Of a DNA stretch of 16,904 nt, positions 3,666 through 16,904 are shown in pieces. This stretch comes from Dehalococcoidales bacterium (GTDB lineage Bacteria > Chloroflexota > Dehalococcoidia > Dehalococcoidales > RBG-16-60-22), in the NCBI GenBank assembly GCA_030615475.1, contig JAUWZF010000002.1, forward strand, positions 1-16,904, given 5' to 3'. Within the stretch, counting starts at the first letter, position 1. Every line of letters begins with the position of its first letter. The notes under the pieces were generated by a model. That model did not search any database. It was not told the origin of the DNA and was given only the letters and a program-made list of their open reading frames with translations. A program made the position numbers and the translations under genes.

Positions 3666-4970
3666 TCACTCACTCGGGTTGACAACGCGGCCCAGGAAGA
3701 GAATGGCTCCCGTCTCGATATCCCGAATCAGGAAGATGAAGGGCCGGTCAACGATGACGATAATGAATTCCTCTTCCTGCGGCGGTGCGGACGTCGGCAT
3801 GATGACGGCGGTGGCCGCGGCCGCCTCGGTGCCCTCTTCATCGACAGACACAAAAGCCTTGTGTATCACCTCGCCGATAAATAAATCGCGGTTGCCCGTC
3901 ATACCGGAAAAGTCGGCACTTCCCAATAAGAAGGCGTCCCGCATACCCAGCGCCGACAGAGCCTTGGCGAGTCTAAAACTGGAATCGAACTCGAATTTCG
4001 GCATCCTGAGATTGACATCTGTCCTCGTAAGTTCATTGATAATCCCCTCTACCTGCTGAAAATCCAGGCCATCCTCAAATTCACCAAAATAACCTTCAGC
4101 GGGAAGCAGTATCACCATCGAGAGCTCCCGGCCGTCATAAGGCAACTCCACCGCCTGATAGTTATCTCCCGCGGCATAGCCGAACGATGCTCTACGCAGC
4201 ATCAGGGGTACAGTCACTGTGCCTCCATCCAGAAGATGGAAGAGGCCATCGGAGGTCTGCCTTTCACTGAAGTCGTACTCCCAGGCGGCATTGAAGTAGA
4301 TGGCGTTGGTCAATACGAGCCGGGTATACGCGTCAATGGCGCCCTGCGGAATCAGGTCTTTAATCCTGTCTTCAGTCTGGTCGCTGACCCAGTCATTGAT
4401 GGTGATGCGTGACTTCTCCGACTCTTTGATGAAGTCCAGAATCCTGAGCCCGGCGCCGTAGTTCTCGGCCAGGGTATCGAGGAAATCGACCAAGAATTCA
4501 AAATCCTTCTGTCCCCAGATGGCATTGACCACGTTCAGCCGGAAACCCTGGTCGTCTTTACCTTCAGCGCCTTCTCCTCTTCTGGCAAACTCCTGGTCCA
4601 GCCAGTTGAAGGCGGGGTGCAGCTGGTCCTGGGGAAGGTCAAGGTGAAGGGTATTGGCCATCTCCCGCCCGGTCTGGCCGCGGGCGCCGGCGTAGGCCAT
4701 GACCAGCGCCGCAGTAATGCTGTAGGGCGAGTAGAAAAGGTTGCCGCCTTCAGCCTTAAGCTCCTGATAAAGGTCAAAGGCGAAAGCGCTGTTACCAGCC
4801 ACGATAGATACCTGGCCGGATTTATCTACTTGCGGCGACGTGAACCGGGCCCTGTCCGATTGTAGCGTCTTGCCGGATGCCATCACCACGCCATCCTTTA
4901 CCGGCGCAGGAGTGCAGGCCGCCAGGCCGACCAGGATTAGTATGACTGTTAATATTATTGCCTTCTTCAT
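3666..4970 (-). CDS. Serpin family protease inhibitor, predicted lipoprotein
   Basis: A 434-residue serpin, a suicide inhibitor of serine (sometimes cysteine) proteases. The start at 4970 is chosen because it gives a lipoprotein signal peptide (MKK, a hydrophobic stretch, then LAAC with C19) preceded by GGCAGG; the frame runs open to 5255 but that extension overlaps the divergent promoter. Serpin landmarks: NLFYSPYSI, LTNAIYFNAAWE, and the C-terminal RPFIFLIRD and FLGRVVNP. The hinge of the reactive loop, EEGTEAAAAT (378-387), matches the inhibitory consensus with small residues at P12-P9, so this should be an active inhibitor rather than a non-inhibitory relative. By standard counting P1 falls near S394 (MPTSAPP), but the loop is longer than in alpha-1-antitrypsin, so P1 is uncertain. 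Lipid anchoring places it outside the membrane. It is divergent from the glutamate synthase operon. Confidence 0.95.
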   Translation of the reverse strand: MKKAIILTVILILVGLAACTPAPVKDGVVMASGKTLQSDRARFTSPQVDKSGQVSIVAGNSAFAFDLYQELKAEGGNLFYSPYSITAALVMAYAGARGQTGREMANTLHLDLPQDQLHPAFNWLDQEFARRGEGAEGKDDQGFRLNVVNAIWGQKDFEFLVDFLDTLAENYGAGLRILDFIKESEKSRITINDWVSDQTEDRIKDLIPQGAIDAYTRLVLTNAIYFNAAWEYDFSERQTSDGLFHLLDGGTVTVPLMLRRASFGYAAGDNYQAVELPYDGRELSMVILLPAEGYFGEFEDGLDFQQVEGIINELTRTDVNLRMPKFEFDSSFRLAKALSALGMRDAFLLGSADFSGMTGNRDLFIGEVIHKAFVSVDEEGTEAAAATAVIMPTSAPPQEEEFIIVIVDRPFIFLIRDIETGAILFLGRVVNPSE

Positions 4971-5177
4971 TTTACCTGCCCCTTTTCTAATCCGCATTAC
5001 CGGCTCGACTGTTCCTTTTAACATTATCACCGCCGGCGATGGAATACAAGAAATTCGCGAGGATTCTGTTTGCTTGTAGTTGGTGGTGGATTTATAATAT
5101 TTTATGACCAGCAATATCCGTCCCGCAATGAAGGTTAGAATAACTATTAGAAGAAAAGATACCTTCGTAAAGAGGCA

Positions 5178-5206
5178 TTGACAAACCGTGATAAACGTGT
5201 TAACAT
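5178..5206 (+). promoter_or_regulatory. Sigma-70-like promoter of the glutamate synthase operon
   Basis: TTGACA at 5178-5183 (6/6 to consensus), a 17-base spacer, then TAACAT at 5201-5206. The perfect palindrome TGTTAACA (5198-5205) overlaps the -10 element and could be a repressor contact. Transcription should start near 5213, about 43 bases before the ferredoxin ATG. The rest of the 285-base divergent gap (4971-5255) is AT-rich. It shows only weak candidates for a serpin promoter on the minus strand, such as a TATAAA-like box around 5090-5105. Confidence 0.7.
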
Positions 5207-5211
5207 ATGGT

Positions 5212-5240
5212 ATGCGGTAAGCGGTTGCCGTTTGCCGTAT
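5212..5240 (+). promoter_or_regulatory. 13-bp dyad/leader hairpin ahead of the glutamate synthase operon
   Basis: ATGCGGTAAGCGG (5212-5224), loop TTG, CCGTTTGCCGTAT (5228-5240). Every position pairs if three G-U wobbles are allowed, so as RNA it forms a 13-bp stem with a 3-base loop. As DNA it is an imperfect dyad immediately downstream of the predicted start site. It ends 15 bases before the ATG, just before the GAGGA ribosome-binding site. It could be an operator, an mRNA-stability hairpin or a translation control element. Confidence 0.5.
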
Positions 5241-5255
5241 TATTGAGGACATCAA

Positions 5256-7173: not shown

Positions 7174-8328
7174 ATGAGAGATTTGAGACAGGTTAATAAC
7201 ATCCATGACGACGACAAGGTAATCGACGCCTGCGCGATATTCGGTGCCATGGATAGGGCGGGCAAGAGGTTCTCCGGGGAGAGCGTCATCAAAGCAATCA
7301 CCAATATGCACGACCGCGGCAACGGACTGGGAGGAGGCTTCGCCATCTACGGCCTTTACCCCGAGCACGCCGACCTCTATGCCTTCCATATAATGTTTCT
7401 CGATAAAAAAGATAAACAGGAGACGGAAGAATTCCTGCGTAAACATTTTACCGTTACCCGCGAGGAAGAAGTGCCCACCCGCCCGACGGCAGCGATTAAG
7501 AATCCCCCGCTGGTATGGCGCTACTTCCTGGACATGCCGCAAAGTCTGCCGGAGAACCTGTCCGCGGACGATTATATCGTGGCCAGGGTTATGGATATTA
7601 ATACCGGTACCAACAATAGTTTCGTTTTTTCCAGCGGCAAGAACATGGCCGTATTTAAAGGCGTGGGTTACCCCGAAGAACTGGCCGGGTATTTCCGACT
7701 GGAAGAGTACCGGGGCTATCTCTGGACGGCGCACGGGAGGTTCCCGACCAACACGGTGGCCTGGTGGGGCGGGGCGCACCCGTTCTCGATTCTGGACTGG
7801 ACGGTGATTCATAACGGCGAGATTTCATCCTACGGGATAAACCGCCGCTTCCTGGAGCAGTACGGCTACCAGTGCACCATGCAGACCGATACCGAAGTCG
7901 TCGCCTATGCCGTCGACCTGCTCATGCGCCAGCACAACCTGCCGCTGGAGATAACCGCCAGGGTACTGGCGGCCCCCTTCTGGGACGAAATCGAGCGGAG
8001 GCCGCCGGCGGAGCAGAAACTCTTGAGGGCATTGCGTCAGGTATACGGCAGCCTGCTCCTGAACGGACCCTTCGCCGTAATTATCGCCCACCACGGGGAA
8101 ATGATAGGACTGACCGACCGCATCAGGTTGCGGCCGCTGACCGTCGGAGAGAAAGGCGATATGCTCTACCTTTCTTCCGAGGAGTCGGCCATCCGCCTGA
8201 TACGTCCCGACCTTGACCGGACCTGGCTTCCTATGGGCGGCGAGCCGGTCATCGGCAGGCTTAAAAAGGAGCCAACTCCACAAGATACCACTGGCGGGGA
8301 GAAGGTATCAGCCGGGAAGTCGGTATAA
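7174..8328 (+). CDS. Glutamate synthase, class II glutamine amidotransferase subunit (archaeal/Glx type)
   Basis: A 384-residue Ntn-type amidotransferase that should release ammonia from glutamine for the FMN subunit encoded next. The nucleophile candidate is C20 in DACAIFG, so 19 residues must be removed to expose it, comparable with the propeptide of large GltB. Other conserved blocks: AHGRFPTNT (H187, R189), GGAHPFSI, IHNGEISSYG (from H213) and QTDTEVVAY. The subunit corresponds to the first domain of fused bacterial GltB and to GlxB-like proteins. It contains about 150 residues between the first strand and the HGRFPTN block, which is normal for this branch. Start: ATG after GAAAGGAACGG. 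It ends only 4 bases before the FMN subunit, so translation is coupled. Confidence 0.93.
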   Translation: MRDLRQVNNIHDDDKVIDACAIFGAMDRAGKRFSGESVIKAITNMHDRGNGLGGGFAIYGLYPEHADLYAFHIMFLDKKDKQETEEFLRKHFTVTREEEVPTRPTAAIKNPPLVWRYFLDMPQSLPENLSADDYIVARVMDINTGTNNSFVFSSGKNMAVFKGVGYPEELAGYFRLEEYRGYLWTAHGRFPTNTVAWWGGAHPFSILDWTVIHNGEISSYGINRRFLEQYGYQCTMQTDTEVVAYAVDLLMRQHNLPLEITARVLAAPFWDEIERRPPAEQKLLRALRQVYGSLLLNGPFAVIIAHHGEMIGLTDRIRLRPLTVGEKGDMLYLSSEESAIRLIRPDLDRTWLPMGGEPVIGRLKKEPTPQDTTGGEKVSAGKSV

Positions 8329-8332
8329 TACA

Positions 8333-9838
8333 ATGAAGACTTATAGCGCACCAAAATTCAAAATAATCAGAGACAAGGACCGATGCATCCAGTGTCAGGT
8401 CTGTGTCAATCAGTGCAGCTTCGGCGCGAACTACTACGACGAAGAAGACGACGAGGTAAGGAGCCTCGAAGAGAACTGTGTCGGCTGCCAGCGCTGCGTG
8501 CTCTTCTGCCCTACCCGGGCATTGACCATCAGCTATAGCCCGCTGGACTACCGCGGTAATTACAACTGGCGTCCCGAGATTATCGAGGACATTAACAAGC
8601 AGGCAGAGACCGGGGGCATGCTGTTGACCGGCATGGGCGATGATAAGGACCAGCGCATTTACTGGGACCATCTGCTGCTTAATGCCAGCCAGGTGACCAA
8701 TCCCTCCATCGACCCCCTGCGCGAGCCGATGGAACTGGTCACTTACCTGGGGCGTAAACCCGACCGACTTGAAGTCGAACCGGACTCACTCACTTTAAAA
8801 ACGCCGTTAACGCCGCTGGTCAAGCTGGAGGTGCCGGTCATGTTCGCCGCCATGTCCTACGGGGCGGTAAGCCTCAACGTACATGAATCCCTCGCCCGGG
8901 CGGCGACCGAGATGGGCACACTGTGGAACACCGGCGAAGGCGGTTTACACCCCAGCCTGTACAAATATGGAAACAATACTATCGTTCAGGTGGCATCGGG
9001 GCGTTTTGGCGTTCATGCCGATTACCTCGACGTGGCCGAAGCAGTTGAAATAAAGATTGGCCAGGGGGCCAAGCCGGGCATCGGCGGACACCTGCCCGGA
9101 GAGAAAGTAAGCGCGGACGTATCACTGACAAGGATGATTCCGGAAGGCACCGATGCCATCTCGCCGGCTCCCCAGCACGATATCTACTCCATCGAGGACC
9201 TGGCCCAGCTTATCTACGCCCTGAAGGAAGCGACCAATTATACCAAGCCGATATTGGTAAAGATTGCCGCCGTCCATAATTCCGCCGCCATCGCCAGCGG
9301 TATCGTTAGAGGCGGTGCCGATATCGTCGTCCTCGACGGGCTGCGCGGGGCCACCGGCGCCGCGCCCAAGGTCATCCGCGATAACGTCGGTATTCCCATT
9401 GAACTGGCCCTGGCCTCGGTGGACAGCCGCTTGAGAGAAGAAGGCATACGCAACCAGGCCTCCATCGTGGTCTCGGGCGGCATCAGAAGCAGCGGCGACG
9501 TGGCCAAGGCAATTGCCCTCGGGGCCGACGCCGTGTACATCGGGACCGCCGCCCTCGTCGCGCTGGGCTGCCATGTCTGCCAGCAGTGCCACACCGGCAA
9601 GTGCGCCTGGGGCATCTGCACCACCGACCTGCGCCTGACCAAGAGAATCAACCCGGAAATCGGCGCCCGCCGGGCGGCCAACCTGCTCCGCGGCTGGAGC
9701 CTCGAGCTGAAAGATATCCTCGGCGGACTCGGCGTTAACGCCCTGGAGAGCCTGCGAGGGAACCGCCTGCACCTTAGAGGCGTCGGCCTGACCGATACCG
9801 AGCTCGAAATCCTGGGTGTAAGAATGGCAGGAAGCTAG
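8333..9838 (+). CDS. gltB: Glutamate synthase, FMN/iron-sulfur catalytic subunit (archaeal type)
   Basis: A 501-residue subunit that makes glutamate from 2-oxoglutarate and ammonia. The N-terminus carries two [4Fe-4S] motifs: C18/21/24/28 (the fourth followed by S, not P) and C49/52/55/59. A linker and the FMN-binding TIM-barrel domain of the GltS type follow, with KIAAVHNSAAIASG, GGADIVVLDG, GATGAAP and VVSGGIRSSGDVAKAIALGADAV. The cysteine group CHVCQQC...KC...C (about 413-429) corresponds to the [3Fe-4S] site of GltB. This combination of N-terminal ferredoxin domain plus FMN domain without fused amidotransferase is the archaeal-type architecture. The frame is open from 8213, but ATG 8333 is used because it begins 4 bases after the previous stop and directly precedes the ferredoxin domain. 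Ribosome binding there is weak (GGGAAG), consistent with coupling. Confidence 0.95.
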   Translation: MKTYSAPKFKIIRDKDRCIQCQVCVNQCSFGANYYDEEDDEVRSLEENCVGCQRCVLFCPTRALTISYSPLDYRGNYNWRPEIIEDINKQAETGGMLLTGMGDDKDQRIYWDHLLLNASQVTNPSIDPLREPMELVTYLGRKPDRLEVEPDSLTLKTPLTPLVKLEVPVMFAAMSYGAVSLNVHESLARAATEMGTLWNTGEGGLHPSLYKYGNNTIVQVASGRFGVHADYLDVAEAVEIKIGQGAKPGIGGHLPGEKVSADVSLTRMIPEGTDAISPAPQHDIYSIEDLAQLIYALKEATNYTKPILVKIAAVHNSAAIASGIVRGGADIVVLDGLRGATGAAPKVIRDNVGIPIELALASVDSRLREEGIRNQASIVVSGGIRSSGDVAKAIALGADAVYIGTAALVALGCHVCQQCHTGKCAWGICTTDLRLTKRINPEIGARRAANLLRGWSLELKDILGGLGVNALESLRGNRLHLRGVGLTDTELEILGVRMAGS

Positions 9839-9839
9839 T

Positions 9840-10598
9840 ATGACAGATATCAGGGACTCCGTAGTCAATATAGATGCCAGCGGCGTTTATTACCGGGAGC
9901 TCAATAACAGGCTCAGGGACGTTGTCGCCAACGGTAGCCGGAAGATTGAGTTGCGCAATGTTTACGGGCAAAGATACATCGGCACCGACCTTAATAAGCC
10001 GGTAGAGATTGAGATTTTCGGCACGCCGGGCAACGACCTCGGAGCCTTCATGAACGGACCGAGGATTATCGTCCACGGCAACGCTCAGGACGGCTGCGGC
10101 AATACCATGAACGAAGGCGAGATAATCGTTCACGGCCATGCCGGGGATACGGTCGGTCTATCGGCCAGGGGCGGCAGGATTTTCATCCGTGAAGACGTCG
10201 GCTACCGCGCCGGTATCCATATGAAAGAGTATCGGGACAAGATGCCGGTAGTTGTCATCGGCGGCACCGCCCAGGACTTCTTCGGCGAGTACATGGCCGG
10301 AGGCACCCTGGTTCTTCTCGGCCTGAATCTCGGCAAAGGGAAAAACCACAAGGCCAGGTTCATCGGCACCGGCATGCACGGCGGCGTTATCTACATACGG
10401 GGAAATGTTGAGGAATACCAGCTGGGTAAGGAAGTGGGCGTCGCCGACCTTGAAGAAAACGACCGCGACGCTCTCCGCAGGTATGTCAGTGAGTTTGCCG
10501 GATATTTCGACCTTGATGCAGATAACATACTGTCGCACAAGTTTATGAAACTGTTCCCGCGCTGGCTCCGGCCCTACGGAAGGCTTTACGCCTATTAA
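9840..10598 (+). CDS. Glutamate synthase, GXGXG-domain subunit
   Basis: A 252-residue protein that matches the C-terminal beta-helix domain of fused GltB and also resembles subunit C of formylmethanofuran dehydrogenase. The regular repeating pattern of G-x-x-G-x-G turns is plain: NGPRIIVHGNAQDGCGN, EGEIIVHGHAGDTVGLSARGG, GTAQDFFGEYMAGGTLVLLG, and GMHGGVIYIRGN. In GltB this helix is structural, connecting the amidotransferase and synthase sites. Its ATG begins one base after the stop of the FMN subunit, with AGGA upstream, so the two are translated together in equal amounts. The residues after about 200 are helical-looking and not assigned. It is the last gene of the glt operon; a hairpin follows the stop. 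Confidence 0.94.
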   Translation: MTDIRDSVVNIDASGVYYRELNNRLRDVVANGSRKIELRNVYGQRYIGTDLNKPVEIEIFGTPGNDLGAFMNGPRIIVHGNAQDGCGNTMNEGEIIVHGHAGDTVGLSARGGRIFIREDVGYRAGIHMKEYRDKMPVVVIGGTAQDFFGEYMAGGTLVLLGLNLGKGKNHKARFIGTGMHGGVIYIRGNVEEYQLGKEVGVADLEENDRDALRRYVSEFAGYFDLDADNILSHKFMKLFPRWLRPYGRLYAY

Positions 10599-12363: not shown

Positions 12364-13359
12364 ATGGACCAACCTGTCGGTGCCGATGCCGAAAGCAAGT
12401 TAATAGCCATCCTCAAAGTGCTGAGTGAGTCCTCGGAACCCCTCGGTTCAATCACCATCGCCCGACTCCTTGAGCATGACGGGGTATTCCTGAGCGAGAG
12501 GGCGGTGCGATACCACTTGAGATTTACCGACGAACGTGGTTTCACCCAGCCCGGCGGCCGGGACGGTAGGATGATTACTCCCCTGGGCAGGCAGGAGGTC
12601 AGGGAAGCGCTGGCGCCGCAGCAGCTTGGTCTCGTGCGTGATAAGCTGGAGCTGCTGGCCTACCAGACCACTTTCGACCCCGAAAAACGTACCGGACAGC
12701 TGGCTATAAACACCTCGATTATTGACAGAGACAGGTTTAAGAAGGCATTGTCGGCTATGAAAGACACCTTCAAGGCCGGAATCTGCGTCAGCGAGCTGGT
12801 GGCCACAGCCGCCGAAGGAGAGAAACTCGGTTCGGTGGTCGTGCCCGAGGGTAAAATAGGCTTCGCCACTATCTGCGGCGCTTCCATAAACGGCGTCCTT
12901 CTCAATGCCGGGGTACCCACGGAGTTCCGGTTCGGCGGCGTGCTGGAAATCAGGGATTCCAAGCCGAGACGCTTCGTGGCGATAACCGAATACGCCGGCA
13001 CTTCCACCGACCCCTCCGAGCAATTTATCCAGGCGAAAATGACCAGCGTGGGTCAGGCGTCCAAGACAGGGAGCGGTAAAATCTTGGGTGCGTTCCGCAC
13101 CATACCGGCGCCGGCCAGGGCAGTTGTCGAGGAGAAGACAGCCAGGCTCAAGGAGGTCGGCATCGGCGGTATTTACGCCTTGGGCCATACCAGCGAGCCG
13201 CTCTGCCAGATTCCGGTCGCCATGAATCGTATTGGCGTCGTACAGCTCGGCGGACTGAATCCGGTGGCGGCGGCCGTCGAGGCCGGAGTTGAAATTGAAA
13301 ATATCGCCGAGAGCGGCTTAATTGATTTCGAGCAGTTGCACAGCTTCCAGGAGCTTTAG
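12364..13359 (+). CDS. nrpR: NrpR-like transcriptional regulator (winged helix plus DUF128/NrpR domain)
   Basis: A 331-residue DNA-binding regulator. Residues 8-80 form a winged-helix domain of the RNase R/NrpR type (KLIAILKVLSESSEPLGSI, then SERAVRYHLRF as the recognition-helix region). From about 85 to the end is one NrpR regulatory domain (DUF128), with TTFDPEKRTGQLAINTSII, GKIGFATICGASINGVLLNAGVPTEF, KTGSGKILGAFRTIPAPA and VGGLNP-like QLGGLNPVAAAVEAG. In methanogens NrpR represses glnA and nif genes and is released by 2-oxoglutarate. This protein has the single-domain (HTH plus one NRD) architecture. Position directly after glnA supports control of this locus, including itself. An in-frame stop at 12331 fixes the start region; the ribosome-binding site is weak (AGGAAG, 14 bases away). 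I found no canonical GGAA-N6-TTCC operator nearby. Confidence 0.88.
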   Translation: MDQPVGADAESKLIAILKVLSESSEPLGSITIARLLEHDGVFLSERAVRYHLRFTDERGFTQPGGRDGRMITPLGRQEVREALAPQQLGLVRDKLELLAYQTTFDPEKRTGQLAINTSIIDRDRFKKALSAMKDTFKAGICVSELVATAAEGEKLGSVVVPEGKIGFATICGASINGVLLNAGVPTEFRFGGVLEIRDSKPRRFVAITEYAGTSTDPSEQFIQAKMTSVGQASKTGSGKILGAFRTIPAPARAVVEEKTARLKEVGIGGIYALGHTSEPLCQIPVAMNRIGVVQLGGLNPVAAAVEAGVEIENIAESGLIDFEQLHSFQEL

Positions 13360-13408: not shown

Positions 13409-13642
13409 ATGAAACTGACCGACGAAGAAAAGGCTTTGCTTGATGGCAGCGAAGGGCTGGCCCGGCAGAAAGCCATGGAGCTTCTGATAAGGTACGGGGA
13501 AGCCCTGGAGGCGGAGAGGCTGGTGGACACCAGTAATGTCTGCGTTTCCGTGACCGCGGGTGCCTACTCCACGGCCAGGCCGGCGAACAGAGAAAGCGAT
13601 ATCGATGCGGACGCCGGTATAATCGAAGTAACCAAAAAGTAA
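13409..13642 (+). CDS. Small protein resembling the N-terminus of aconitase X (AcnX/DUF521)
   Basis: An intact 77-residue reading frame with its own ribosome-binding site (GCGGAGA, 7 bases before ATG). Residues 1 to about 50 (MKLTDEEKALLDG, then QKAMELLIRYGEALEAERLV) look like the opening helices of the AcnX catalytic subunit family, which is normally about 400 residues. Similarity fades near residue 60. The last 17 or so residues (DIDADAGIIEVTKK end) are unlike AcnX as far as I recall. The rest of AcnX is absent: the next gene, 25 bases on, is a cupin-like protein. It is either a truncated remnant that stayed open, or a small protein with its own job, perhaps as a partner of the neighbours. 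No signal peptide or membrane segment is seen. Function unknown. Confidence 0.7.
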   Translation: MKLTDEEKALLDGSEGLARQKAMELLIRYGEALEAERLVDTSNVCVSVTAGAYSTARPANRESDIDADAGIIEVTKK

Positions 13643-13667
13643 TTGATTATGGACAGGGAGGATAAAA

Positions 13668-14204
13668 ATGGCTGAAACCAAATACGGCAAGTACTTCCTG
13701 AAATATGACCCCCCGCCGGGGCCCCCGTTCATCATGGGGCCGATTCTCCAGCGTATGGATAGTAAAACCATTAGCGGTAGTAACTTCTATTTCATTCACT
13801 GGGTGCTCCCCCACGAGACCCCCCGCATGAAGGTGGGGCACCCGCCGCACATACATAGCGAAGCCGAGCTCCTGATACACATCGGCACGAACCCCGATGA
13901 CCCCGATGACCTGGGGGCGGAGGTCGAGCTATACATGGGGCCGGAGTTGGAAAGACATGTCATCACCACGACCACCGTGGTCTTTATTCCGCCCAACTTC
14001 ATCCACGCTCCCTGGAATCCCCTGAAGACGGTCAGGCCCTGGATATTCATTGAAATCAACCAGGGCTTCAGGCACACGGAGAAATTCTACCCGCAGCTGG
14101 TGACCAGGGAACAAAGAGCCGAACTGGACTGGTCGTTCTGGCATGACGACGGCATGAGCGAAGGGTACAGCAACATGGTAAAGCCGCAACAAACGGGAGG
14201 GTAA
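13668..14204 (+). CDS. Cupin-like protein, first of a tandem pair
   Basis: A 178-residue protein with a single cupin-type beta-barrel. Motif 1 is GHPPHIHSEAELLIHIG (57-73), giving metal-ligand candidates H61, H63 and E67; motif 2 is FIPPNFIHAPWN (107-118), with H113. This is the HxHxxxE...H set of mononuclear metal cupins. No enzyme activity can be assigned. It is paralogous to the next gene: both begin M-x-ETKYGKY and share HVITT, FIH-x-PW and HTEK-x-Y segments. GGGAGG precedes the ATG at good spacing, and the next gene starts 5 bases after its stop, so both belong to one transcript. Cytosolic. The family could be an isomerase, dioxygenase or ligand-binding protein. Confidence 0.85.
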   Translation: MAETKYGKYFLKYDPPPGPPFIMGPILQRMDSKTISGSNFYFIHWVLPHETPRMKVGHPPHIHSEAELLIHIGTNPDDPDDLGAEVELYMGPELERHVITTTTVVFIPPNFIHAPWNPLKTVRPWIFIEINQGFRHTEKFYPQLVTREQRAELDWSFWHDDGMSEGYSNMVKPQQTGG

Positions 14205-14209
14205 AGTAA

Positions 14210-14770
14210 ATGGTGGAAACGAAGTACGGAAAATATATCTTATCCGGGCCAAGGCCATGGAATCCGCCCGGGACCGGTGAGATTGTCGCCTTTGTGGATG
14301 ATAAAGTGAATAATAACGCCTATTTTCAAAGCCACCAGTATTACATTCACTGGGTGCCCGCTGTCCCGGAGGGATTGCCCGGAGTATCCTCATGGGAAGA
14401 GATGGGGCACGGACCGCATAAACATAAATACCCGGAAGTTGTGATGCATATCGGAACAGACCCGGATAATCCGCTGGACCTGGGAGGCGAGGTTGAGTTC
14501 TGTCTGGGGCCGGAGCTGGAAAAGCATGTCATCACCACGTCCACCCTCGTCTATCTGCCCGCCGATTTTATCCATGGCCCCTGGATAATCAGGAAGGTGA
14601 CGAGGCCGTTTATCATGATAACCGTCGAACAGTCGCCCACACACACTGAAAAGTCCTATCAGGAGCTGGTATCCGAGAAAGAAAGAGATAACCTGTTATT
14701 CATCGACCAGGGCTATGACAGCGAGGAGAGAGTTATCAAGCTGGCGAAGAAGATGGCACGCGAGTGGTAA
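14210..14770 (+). CDS. Cupin-like protein, second of a tandem pair
   Basis: A 186-residue paralog of the preceding protein. Motif 1 GHGPHKHKYPEVVMHIG (66-82) keeps H70, H72 and E76; motif 2 YLPADFIHGPW (115-125) keeps H122 but has Ile where the usual Asn follows. The insert between the first strand and motif 1 is longer (VPEGLPGVSSWEEMG) than in its partner, and the C-terminus ends in a basic helix (KLAKKMAREW). Shared metal ligands in both copies suggest that both bind metal, with divergence in the pocket, so they may form a heteromer or act on related substrates. GGAGGG at the end of the preceding gene serves as ribosome-binding site. No known function is recognised. Confidence 0.84.
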   Translation: MVETKYGKYILSGPRPWNPPGTGEIVAFVDDKVNNNAYFQSHQYYIHWVPAVPEGLPGVSSWEEMGHGPHKHKYPEVVMHIGTDPDNPLDLGGEVEFCLGPELEKHVITTSTLVYLPADFIHGPWIIRKVTRPFIMITVEQSPTHTEKSYQELVSEKERDNLLFIDQGYDSEERVIKLAKKMAREW

Positions 14771-14787
14771 GCCTGAAAGGAGAAAGG

Positions 14788-15939
14788 ATGCCGGAACTGA
14801 GCCTGAAAGAGAAAGAGCGCCGCTGGTCGCTGCTGCGTAAAACGTTGCAGAAAGCCGGGCTTTCGGCGCTCATCGTCTACGGCGGTACCCAGCTGGGCGT
14901 ACCGGTCCACTACCTGACGCGGGTGTGGGGCAGCAAGCAGAACATGGTGATATTTCCGGTCGATGGCGAGCCTGTTTTCTTAATTCCCAGCAACACCGGC
15001 ATGACGGGAGAATCCCTGGTCAAACAGGGCTGCTGGCTGCCGGCGGAGAACATCCGCTCCTCGTATAATCTGGCGATTGACGCAGCGAAACTGATTATCG
15101 ACCTCAAATTACAAAAAACACAGGTCGGGGTCGACAGTTTTCGCTTCTGGCCGGTGTTCGAGTACCGGACATTCAATGAGCTGTGCCCGGATGTCCAGCT
15201 CGTGGAGTCGCACCGGTTATTCGGCGAGATACGCGGTCCCAAGAGCGCCGAGGAACTGGCGGTCATGGAAAAGGCCATCCGTATTTCGGACCTCGCCCAC
15301 AACACCTTTTTAGCCAACCTGAAACCGGGACTTACCGAGGAAGAGGTAGCCAATAAAGCGAATGAAGTCCTGACCGCCCATGACGTCGTCGACAGGATAA
15401 TCTTAATCCACAGTCGTCCCGAAGCGGCTTACCCCTACCGTCCCGGCCCCACGGTGATACAGAAACCGAACCCGGTAACGTTCTCCCCGGAATTCACCCG
15501 AAACCTGGGCTACGGCGCCCAAATGATACGGGCTTACTGGTGGGAGGAGCCTGAAGGCATATACAAAAAGATGTTCTACCTTTGGGCGGAAATGAGGCAG
15601 ATGGTAGTACGGGAGTTCCGACCCGGCGTGGAAATCACCGGCGCCGGTCAGATGATTGAAAACCTGGTCGGAGAATGGGGCTTCGAGTGCGATAAACTGG
15701 GACATGCCGTCGGGCTGTCCTACGGGGACGCCCCCTACATCACCGCCGGCCCCCACGAGCGCGACTATATGGAGTGGACAATTTTAACCGACGAAGTGTA
15801 CGCCGTTCATCCCATGGTCAGGTGCAAGGGCGGTAAAGCCCCATTTACCATGATTGGTGATATGTATTTCATCGGCAAGGACGCCACCAGATGGATGACC
15901 ACCGCCCTGCCGGGTCTCCCCGAGATGATTCCGCATTAA
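14788..15939 (+). CDS. M24/creatinase-like pita-bread-fold protein with degenerate metal site
   Basis: A 383-residue protein with an N-terminal creatinase-like domain (about 1-150) and a pita-bread domain (about 155-375). It would be labelled a Xaa-Pro peptidase by similarity, but of the five metal ligands of aminopeptidase P-type enzymes (D, D, H, E, E) only H306 in GHAVGL is clear. The first two positions fall in FSPEF...GYGAQMIR (P/S and Q245 instead of Asp). The first Glu is H341 (AVHP), and the second is Gly in IGDM (357). A metal-dependent peptidase is therefore unlikely. A metal-free hydrolase in the manner of creatinase, or another lyase or binding role, fits better. I chose ATG 14788, which has AAGGAG 5 bases upstream; ATG 14764 is in frame, overlaps the previous gene and lacks a site. 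Confidence 0.85.
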   Translation: MPELSLKEKERRWSLLRKTLQKAGLSALIVYGGTQLGVPVHYLTRVWGSKQNMVIFPVDGEPVFLIPSNTGMTGESLVKQGCWLPAENIRSSYNLAIDAAKLIIDLKLQKTQVGVDSFRFWPVFEYRTFNELCPDVQLVESHRLFGEIRGPKSAEELAVMEKAIRISDLAHNTFLANLKPGLTEEEVANKANEVLTAHDVVDRIILIHSRPEAAYPYRPGPTVIQKPNPVTFSPEFTRNLGYGAQMIRAYWWEEPEGIYKKMFYLWAEMRQMVVREFRPGVEITGAGQMIENLVGEWGFECDKLGHAVGLSYGDAPYITAGPHERDYMEWTILTDEVYAVHPMVRCKGGKAPFTMIGDMYFIGKDATRWMTTALPGLPEMIPH

Positions 15940-16904
15940 TGATGAAAAGCATCGTAATTTATTATTCACAGACGGGAAACACGAAAAGGATTGCCGAAGC
16001 AGTCCGCACCGGTATGCGCGAGCTGTCGGAGACGTGCGATATTGCCCGACTCCAGGACGTGGATACCGGGGACATAGCCGGGTACGATTTAATCGGGCTG
16101 GGCGCACCCGTGTGGCACCGGCGGGAACCGGCCAACGTGATGAACTTCATCGAATACACCATGAACTCGGTGGAAGGCAAGCACGGTTTCGCCTTCTGCA
16201 CCCACGGTCTCCTGCCCGGTCGCTTCCTGGCCAGAGTAGCGCCCATAATGACACAGAAAGGACTGACAGTTATCGGCTGGAATAACTGGTACTGCGGCGT
16301 CACCATGCCGGAGAAGCCCAAGCCCTATTTTACCGATGGCCACCCTGATGAAATCGACCTTGCCGAGGCGAAGGACTTCGGCCGGGAAATGGCGGAGCGG
16401 AGCCGGAGGATTTACGCCGGAGAGGACGGTCTAATACCTTCATTACCTCAAGGCCGCGAATATGACGAGCTTTACCCGGGCAGAGGCAGCAGCTGGGAAC
16501 TGAAAAAGGGGCGAACCCCGAGACAGGAAAATGCTGAAGACCTGGAGCAGACCGGCCTGCGGAGTTTCGGCTTCAAGTTCAATAGAGAGAAATGCCTGTA
16601 TCCCAGGTGCACGCTGTGTATCGATAACTGCCCGACCAACAGCATTGACATGTCTGCCTCACCGCCGATTCTAAGGAAAAGGTGCGACCGGTGCTGGTAC
16701 TGCGAGCAAATCTGTCCCCGGGGCGCCATCGAGGTGGACTGGGAGTCTATCGTGAAAATAATCGATGAACATGTCGCCCCGGGCTTTGTCGAGCTGGCCG
16801 AAGAGGCGGCAACTGAAGGGCGTTTCCGAAGGCTGGTGCCGCCGGAGGCGGTCGGCTGGAAGACGTACTGGTACCAGGTCAAGAAGCCGCCGCGCCTCAA
16901 GCCG
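15939..16904 (+). CDS. Flavodoxin-ferredoxin fusion protein (EFR1-like), 3' truncated
   Basis: The frame is open from ATG 15939, whose first base is the last base of the previous stop (TAATG), to the right edge: 322 residues and no stop. The N-terminus is a flavodoxin domain with the phosphate loop YYSQTGNTKRIAEA (about 8-21) and LIGLGAPVW. The second domain, from about residue 215, is a two-cluster ferredoxin: C219/224/227/231 and C249/252/255/259. The first group is C-x4-C-x2-C-x3-C instead of the usual C-x2-C-x2-C-x3-C. Such fusions carry single electrons in the cytosol of anaerobes. It is probably translationally coupled to the pita-bread protein, making a redox step in the same pathway likely. 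The ATG at 15942 is an equally possible start. Redox partner unknown. Confidence 0.85.
   Translation, partial: MMKSIVIYYSQTGNTKRIAEAVRTGMRELSETCDIARLQDVDTGDIAGYDLIGLGAPVWHRREPANVMNFIEYTMNSVEGKHGFAFCTHGLLPGRFLARVAPIMTQKGLTVIGWNNWYCGVTMPEKPKPYFTDGHPDEIDLAEAKDFGREMAERSRRIYAGEDGLIPSLPQGREYDELYPGRGSSWELKKGRTPRQENAEDLEQTGLRSFGFKFNREKCLYPRCTLCIDNCPTNSIDMSASPPILRKRCDRCWYCEQICPRGAIEVDWESIVKIIDEHVAPGFVELAEEAATEGRFRRLVPPEAVGWKTYWYQVKKPPRLKP

Follow-up and report, generated by a model that had tools for sequence, protein, structure and literature searches.

A recurring cluster of paired cupins, a metal-poor pita-bread protein and an EFR1-type electron carrier in Dehalococcoidales-like Chloroflexota

Creatinase, an enzyme of the pita-bread fold, works without a metal. 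The ectoine hydrolase DoeA has been described as creatinase-like (PMC3187862), and the two-subunit enzymes of the aconitase X (AcnX) type include, as set out in PMC8184944, cis-3-hydroxy-L-proline dehydratases, archaeal mevalonate 5-phosphate dehydratases and subclasses without an assigned function. SAR202 Chloroflexi, a lineage next to Dehalococcoidia, are described as carrying many catabolic paralogues (FMN/F420 monooxygenases, CoA-transferases and SDRs), of which the monooxygenases were proposed as lifestyle-defining catabolic enzymes (PMC5395668). Here we analysed a gene cluster of a Dehalococcoidales bacterium (assembly GCA_030615475.1, contig JAUWZF010000002.1), which runs from position 13409 to the right end of the window, that is, the whole stretch of 16,904 nucleotides under study, and which consists of an AcnX remnant, two cupins, a pita-bread protein of the M24 family and an EFR1-type flavodoxin-ferredoxin.

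Each gene of the cluster has a described counterpart from which it departs. An intact pair of the AcnX type (Type II dehydratases) lies near cupin 2 and M24 in the related locus L051, whereas the window keeps a scar only. The M24 protein has the pita-bread fold in common with creatinase and ectoine hydrolase (DoeA/EutD), at 15–16% identity, and EFR1 agrees with its family in domain order and both cysteine sets but differs in having M24 and cupin genes as neighbours. On balance, we lean towards a catabolic reading, in which the cluster is one module within a set of metal cupins specific to an anaerobic, Dehalococcoidales-like family of Chloroflexota.

Gene content and order of the cluster

All five reading frames called in the initial annotation of this DNA were recovered on the plus strand, separated by 25, 5, 17 and −1 bases: the AcnX remnant (13409–13642, 77 amino acids (aa)), cupin 1 (13668–14204, 178 aa), cupin 2 (14210–14770, 186 aa), the M24 protein (14788–15939, 383 aa, with GTG at 14764 as an alternative open start) and EFR1 (15942, or 15939, to 16904, 321 aa with no stop before the contig end). 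Because the window is one entire contig (C72) of a 1.41-Mb genome in 265 contigs that is 77.65% complete, the cluster is truncated at its right end, near the last EFR1 codons. Compared with near relatives, cupin 1, cupin 2, M24 and EFR1 had dN/dS values of 0.09–0.19 (0.10 for cupin 2 and 0.19 for EFR1; glnA, 0.11); by this measure purifying selection maintains four of the five frames as genes, and the remaining one, the first, is a deletion scar. The low dN/dS, together with a gene order that recurs in other genomes, indicates that the cluster is more than a chance assembly. Tight spacing, a shared strand and an order partly kept in relatives also agree with the proposal of a single transcript; a scan for promoters and terminators gave counts no higher than the chance expectation.

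Recurrence was assessed in 61 genomes, the own and those of 60 relatives; 31 of the 61 are in the same bacterial family and 30 elsewhere in the order. Nine of the 61, the own included, carry M24 at E ≤ 1e-30. A scan of named genomes yielded nine M24 loci, labelled as Dehalococcoidales/Dehalococcoidia (five), Chloroflexi (two), Bacillota (one) and Deltaproteobacteria (one); seven probably correspond, by identity and position, to genomes of the 61-genome set, and L047 and L049 were new, which brings the total to 11 loci. A cupin lies immediately 5′ of M24 in six of them (the window, G001, G002, G018, G029 and, as a remnant, G003). EFR1 (tblastn, E ≤ 1e-25) was detected in 7 of the 31 family genomes, all among the nine with M24, and in none of the 22 without M24; it stands directly 3′ of M24 in all seven, and an additional, diverged copy lies elsewhere in the G004 genome. 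EFR1 is in turn followed by a third cupin, starting about 25–30 bases on, and by an SDR, within about 0.8 kb, in all four continuing loci of the two nearest genera (G001, G002, G003 and G018); neither was found at this place in G004, and the contig of G015 stops behind EFR1. G003 (L044:7566–11642 and L175) has kept M24, EFR1, cupin 3 and the SDR despite the loss of AcnX and half of cupin 1, which suggests that these four may not need an intact cupin 1 to function. A 3.5-kb locus, L118 (G005:C36), has tandem cupin-2-like genes (55% and 46% identical to window cupin 2) and no M24.

Deletion of the AcnX genes

The first frame had been described as an AcnX-like fragment, of which the AcnX origin holds (PF04412, 49.6 bits) and the standing as a gene does not. 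Its first 67 codons resemble the N terminus of the intact AcnX large subunit in L051 (44 of 67 identical), its last 13 codons resemble the C terminus of the small subunit of that locus (8 of 13 identical), and the junction is an Asp-x-Asp-Ala stretch that is similar in both subunits. Since the start of the large subunit is thus joined to the end of the small one, a single deletion took out the rest, and the remnant, which covers only model positions 1–55 of 400 and so falls short of a full-length catalytic subunit, is on this comparison a scar left by deletion within an AcnX gene pair and not a working dehydratase. The identical junction is present in the public proteins P0241, whose remnant matches the 77-aa product of the window at 66 of 77 positions, and P0244, so an artefact of assembly can be dismissed.

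Other relatives lost AcnX in other ways. In G003, of the same genus, a Leu-Gly-Ala-Glu stretch common to both genes marks the fusion of AcnX codon 36 with the middle of cupin 1, after which the cupin 1 portion goes out of frame, and P0246 is identical; P0247 has a third junction, in which AcnX is fused to cupin 1 residues 143–178 (34 of 36 identical). Counted by these junctions, AcnX was lost by at least three different deletions among the relatives. We considered a conserved mini-protein and rejected it, as the three different junctions are better explained by decay; some role for the leftover 77-aa peptide is possible.

In L051 (G029), the intact large (426 aa; PF04412, 404 bits) and small (143 aa; PF01989, 78 bits) subunits are followed, across one intervening frame on the reverse strand, by cupin 2 and M24, and this AcnX scores 248 bits against the 700 needed for the cis-3-hydroxy-L-proline dehydratase model. 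In G005 (L132), the large and small AcnX subunits and a cupin are consecutive, with a gap of 7 bases and then an overlap of 4 bases, and the large subunit has an apparent frame change close to its end; no cupin was found in the flanks of the AcnX copies at G005:C15 and G015:C12. The junctions between AcnX and cupin 1 place the ancestral AcnX immediately before cupin 1, and the ancestral order was probably AcnX(large–small)–cupin1–cupin2–M24–EFR1–cupin3–SDR. As far as gene order can tell, the cluster is a recurring operon-like module of which different relatives retain different parts.

A lineage-specific family of metal-type cupins

The predicted structure of cupin 1 has the cupin fold, a double-stranded beta-helix, and both window cupins carry the metal motif HxH(x)3-4E ... 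H (His61-x-His63-x3-Glu67...His113 in cupin 1) together with the further residues His58, His71 and His136, which are invariant in the subfamily. Fold and motif assign them to the metal-type cupin superfamily, with predicted metal binding; cupin 2 is a paralogue of cupin 1 in the same clade, at 44% identity. Neither matched any Pfam or NCBIfam model at E ≤ 1 or reached the curated cut-off of Pfam Cupin_2 (PF07883), and in set A3, 8 of 34 members matched PF07883 at E ≤ 0.01 (best, 2.5e-4) and 0 of 34 matched NCBIfam. Beyond weak Cupin_2 and MarH matches, neither profile nor sequence searches from the cupins were informative. The nearest solved structures by predicted fold, and weakly by profile too, are a non-heme iron epimerase/lyase (7eqk/7f6x) and the epimerase MarH (6j4b). 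These are single-domain metal cupins like those of the window, at only 16–18% identity, from which the window cupins differ in being paired, in the extra invariant histidines and in the tens of copies that their family numbers.

An iterated profile search of the own genome recovered 40 domains of this family in 33 open reading frames on 19 contigs, an estimated 2% or so of the genes if set against 1.4 Mb. The complete His-His-Glu/Gln-His set is present in 34 of the 38 domains that span the motif (two of the 40 do not and were left out), with Gln in 5 of the 34; the four domains with lost ligands all lie within double cupins, and several family cupins stand alone. Within the same bacterial family, 16 of 31 genomes have 20–65 matches (at least 65 in two) and 15 have none at E ≤ 1e-5; elsewhere in the order, 2 of 30 genomes have 2 and 6 matches, which makes 18 carriers among the 61 genomes. 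A sample of 251 genomes from the phylum contained the family in two, one being the own genome, and the genomes of L047 and L049 gave two matches (one partial) and one match, respectively. By these counts the expansion is specific to the lineage, in a family that has neither a name nor an NCBIfam model. The paralogue expansions of SAR202 offer a precedent, although they concern mainly oxidative enzymes, and the word 'cupin' is absent from the main text of PMC5395668. Judged by titles and the beginnings of abstracts, searches for cupins in Dehalococcoidia, Chloroflexi and Bathyarchaeota, and for ferredoxin, returned no publication on this cupin family; nor, judged in the same way, did searches on NrpR and on paralogue expansion in Dehalococcoidia. 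Two relatives of cupin 1 with 62–63% identity, P0156 and P0160, are labelled Bathyarchaeia and Nitrososphaerota, a hint of transfer between bacteria and archaea.

In a tree of 182 domains (midpoint root, inner branches weak at 0.23–0.60, domains of fewer than 110 model positions and identical ones left out), cupins 1 and 2 form one clade of 38–39 domains with their closest paralogues (support, 0.96–0.97). These paralogues make up a cupin-ferredoxin-cupin cassette: the first cupin is followed immediately by the ferredoxin in 11 of 12 loci (L018, L107, L108, L109, L111, L112, L114–L117 and L123; L113 is the exception, and one locus is at a contig end). A second cupin is present in 9 of the 12 and a divergent Zn-alcohol dehydrogenase in 5, all of them among the 11. 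In the 11 loci, the ferredoxin is a 70–77-aa 2[4Fe-4S] protein with an unusual Trp-Trp-Cys-Pro second site. Orthologues of cupin 1 keep other company: in genus g6 they have double cupins and a CoA-transferase of class III as neighbours, and in G004 an SDR and an AOR. Where group A cupin 1 occurs apart from the M24 operon, at nine loci (genus g6, G004, G016 and G018), neither EFR1 nor the ferredoxin was seen in the flanks, which extended to about 1.5 kb at most.

More widely, any of ten redox/CoA families occurred within 3 kb of 36 of 69 cupin clusters and in 8 of the 52 windows that served as controls (Fisher p 2e-5; the families were picked post hoc and the controls drawn from 7 of the 10 genomes used), so that nearly half of the clusters have none. 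SDR and nitroreductase each stood near 9 of 69 clusters versus 1 of 52 controls, AOR, FAD2, MDR, UroD, ferredoxin and M24 were higher near cupins, but at p 0.06–0.3, and there was no excess of Liv transporters, CoA-transferase III, AMP ligases, OYE, FAD oxidase or SnoaL near the 69 clusters. A link between AOR number and cupin presence (mean 9.5 vs 5.1; raw p 0.02, per Mb p 0.058, kinship ignored) was not used.

Candidate functions of the module

The initial annotation named a cupin pair, a creatinase-like fold and a flavodoxin-ferredoxin; these families were assigned correctly, as was the poverty in metal ligands of the pita-bread protein. M24 (PF00557, 59.8 bits; PF01321, 24.5 bits) is modelled with the pita-bread fold (pLDDT 76.3; residues 304–315 and 320–327 below 50), its nearest folds being ectoine hydrolase, prolidases and creatinase, roughly tied. 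Of the ligands Asp, Asp, His, Glu and Glu, which we take to be the metal ligands of prolidase, only the histidine (His306) is kept; Ser and Gln replace the two Asp, and His and Gly the two Glu, a pair aligned through the L020 paralogue. M24 thus lacks the five-ligand set of M24 peptidase metalloenzymes and, by its model, has the trait of creatinase and DoeA, a pita-bread fold without metal ligands; it stays far below the NCBIfam models for ectoine hydrolase (39.6 vs 575 bits and 24.5 vs 613 bits). A second M24 clade with similar ligand losses (L020:1132–2238, L049:13519–14661, L053:8074–9186 and L058:13561–14673) adjoins, as judged by eye, an FrdA-like FAD protein in each case, and SnoaL-like and peptide-transporter genes in L049 and L053. 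EFR1 (NF038196, 88.7 bits; cut-off, 75) combines a flavodoxin domain with two [4Fe-4S] cysteine sets, C-x4-C-x2-C-x3-C and C-x2-C-x2-C-x3-C.

As a catabolic module, the favoured reading, the cluster would serve the anaerobic breakdown of a small organic compound. A metal-dependent step of epimerase, isomerase or lyase type may fall to cupins 1 and 2, which might form a mixed oligomer; M24 may carry out a metal-free hydrolysis or bond cleavage in the manner of creatinase and ectoine hydrolase, and the SDR the oxidation or reduction of an alcohol or ketone; EFR1 would pass low-potential electrons to or from one step, and the former AcnX step would have been the dehydration of a hydroxy acid. The initial annotation knew of no matching pathway and none was found here. 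The genes do occur together beyond this genome, and they did not turn out to belong each to a separate known pathway.

Nearness of the M24 fold to creatinase and ectoine hydrolase makes C–N cleavage possible, though prolidases tie, and would fit nitrogen scavenging, in which M24, regulated by NrpR, acts as an amidino- or amidohydrolase and liberates nitrogen from an organic compound. We consider this unlikely, for the neighbouring nitrogen genes, earlier taken as a functional hint, do not travel with the cluster: GlnA/NrpR is next to it or one gene off in only 3 of 11 M24 loci, all of one genus (G000, G001 and G002), and a search for NrpR operators gave no excess. The NrpR-like regulator upstream (12364–13359, plus strand; HTH_12 and NRD1_2; PF01995, 252.9 bits; PF08461, 62.2 bits) is, by this comparison, no conserved part of the cluster. 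It follows glnA, which in turn follows a glutamate synthase (7174–10598) seemingly in three genes, an amidotransferase, an FMN core with a ferredoxin domain and a GltB C-terminal part, as judged by eye; such a three-gene arrangement is known from archaea. At 3666–5255 on the minus strand, inspection by eye suggests a bacterial lipoprotein serpin.

The ferredoxin of the sister cassettes, the EFR1 of the window operon and the single clade that holds both cupin types would suit a complex of cupins 1 and 2 that reduces its substrate with electrons from ferredoxin or EFR1. This is rather improbable, as EFR1 goes with M24 (7 of 7) and not with the cupins (7 of 16 cupin genomes), as the nine cupin 1 loci show no such carrier in their flanks and as L113 is an exception among the cassettes. 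The bolder form of the idea, a new class of oxygen-independent redox enzyme built from two paralogous mononuclear metal cupins and a dedicated low-potential carrier (ferredoxin in the sister cassette, EFR1 here) and multiplied for many organic compounds, strikes us as more doubtful still. We give even less credit to cupins without catalysis, multiplied for binding diversity as metal or ligand carriers, sensors or storage proteins: stand-alone cupins and the lost ligands in double cupins speak for it, against which stand the metal set in most own-genome domains, the repeated placement beside enzymes and the purifying selection on the window pair. Dioxygenases, offered in the initial annotation, are hard to credit in this lineage; although quercetinases and 3-hydroxyanthranilate dioxygenase are among the Foldseek matches of the cupin model, the best are epimerases and isomerases, the AOR, UroD-like, FrdA-like and ferredoxin genes nearby are typical of anaerobes, and PMC5395668 describes cultured Dehalococcoidia as anaerobes.

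Read as one catabolic module, the operon is small enough to be testable as a set, with two to three cupins, M24 as a metal-free pita-bread protein, EFR1 as the one electron carrier and an SDR. If the bolder idea of a new redox class were true, cupin-plus-carrier enzymes would attack many organic compounds. The cupin family divides its bacterial family into 16 genomes with it and 15 without, and if catabolic, it would be a main candidate for how these uncultured bacteria make a living, comparable to the reductive dehalogenases that define the lifestyle of Dehalococcoides.

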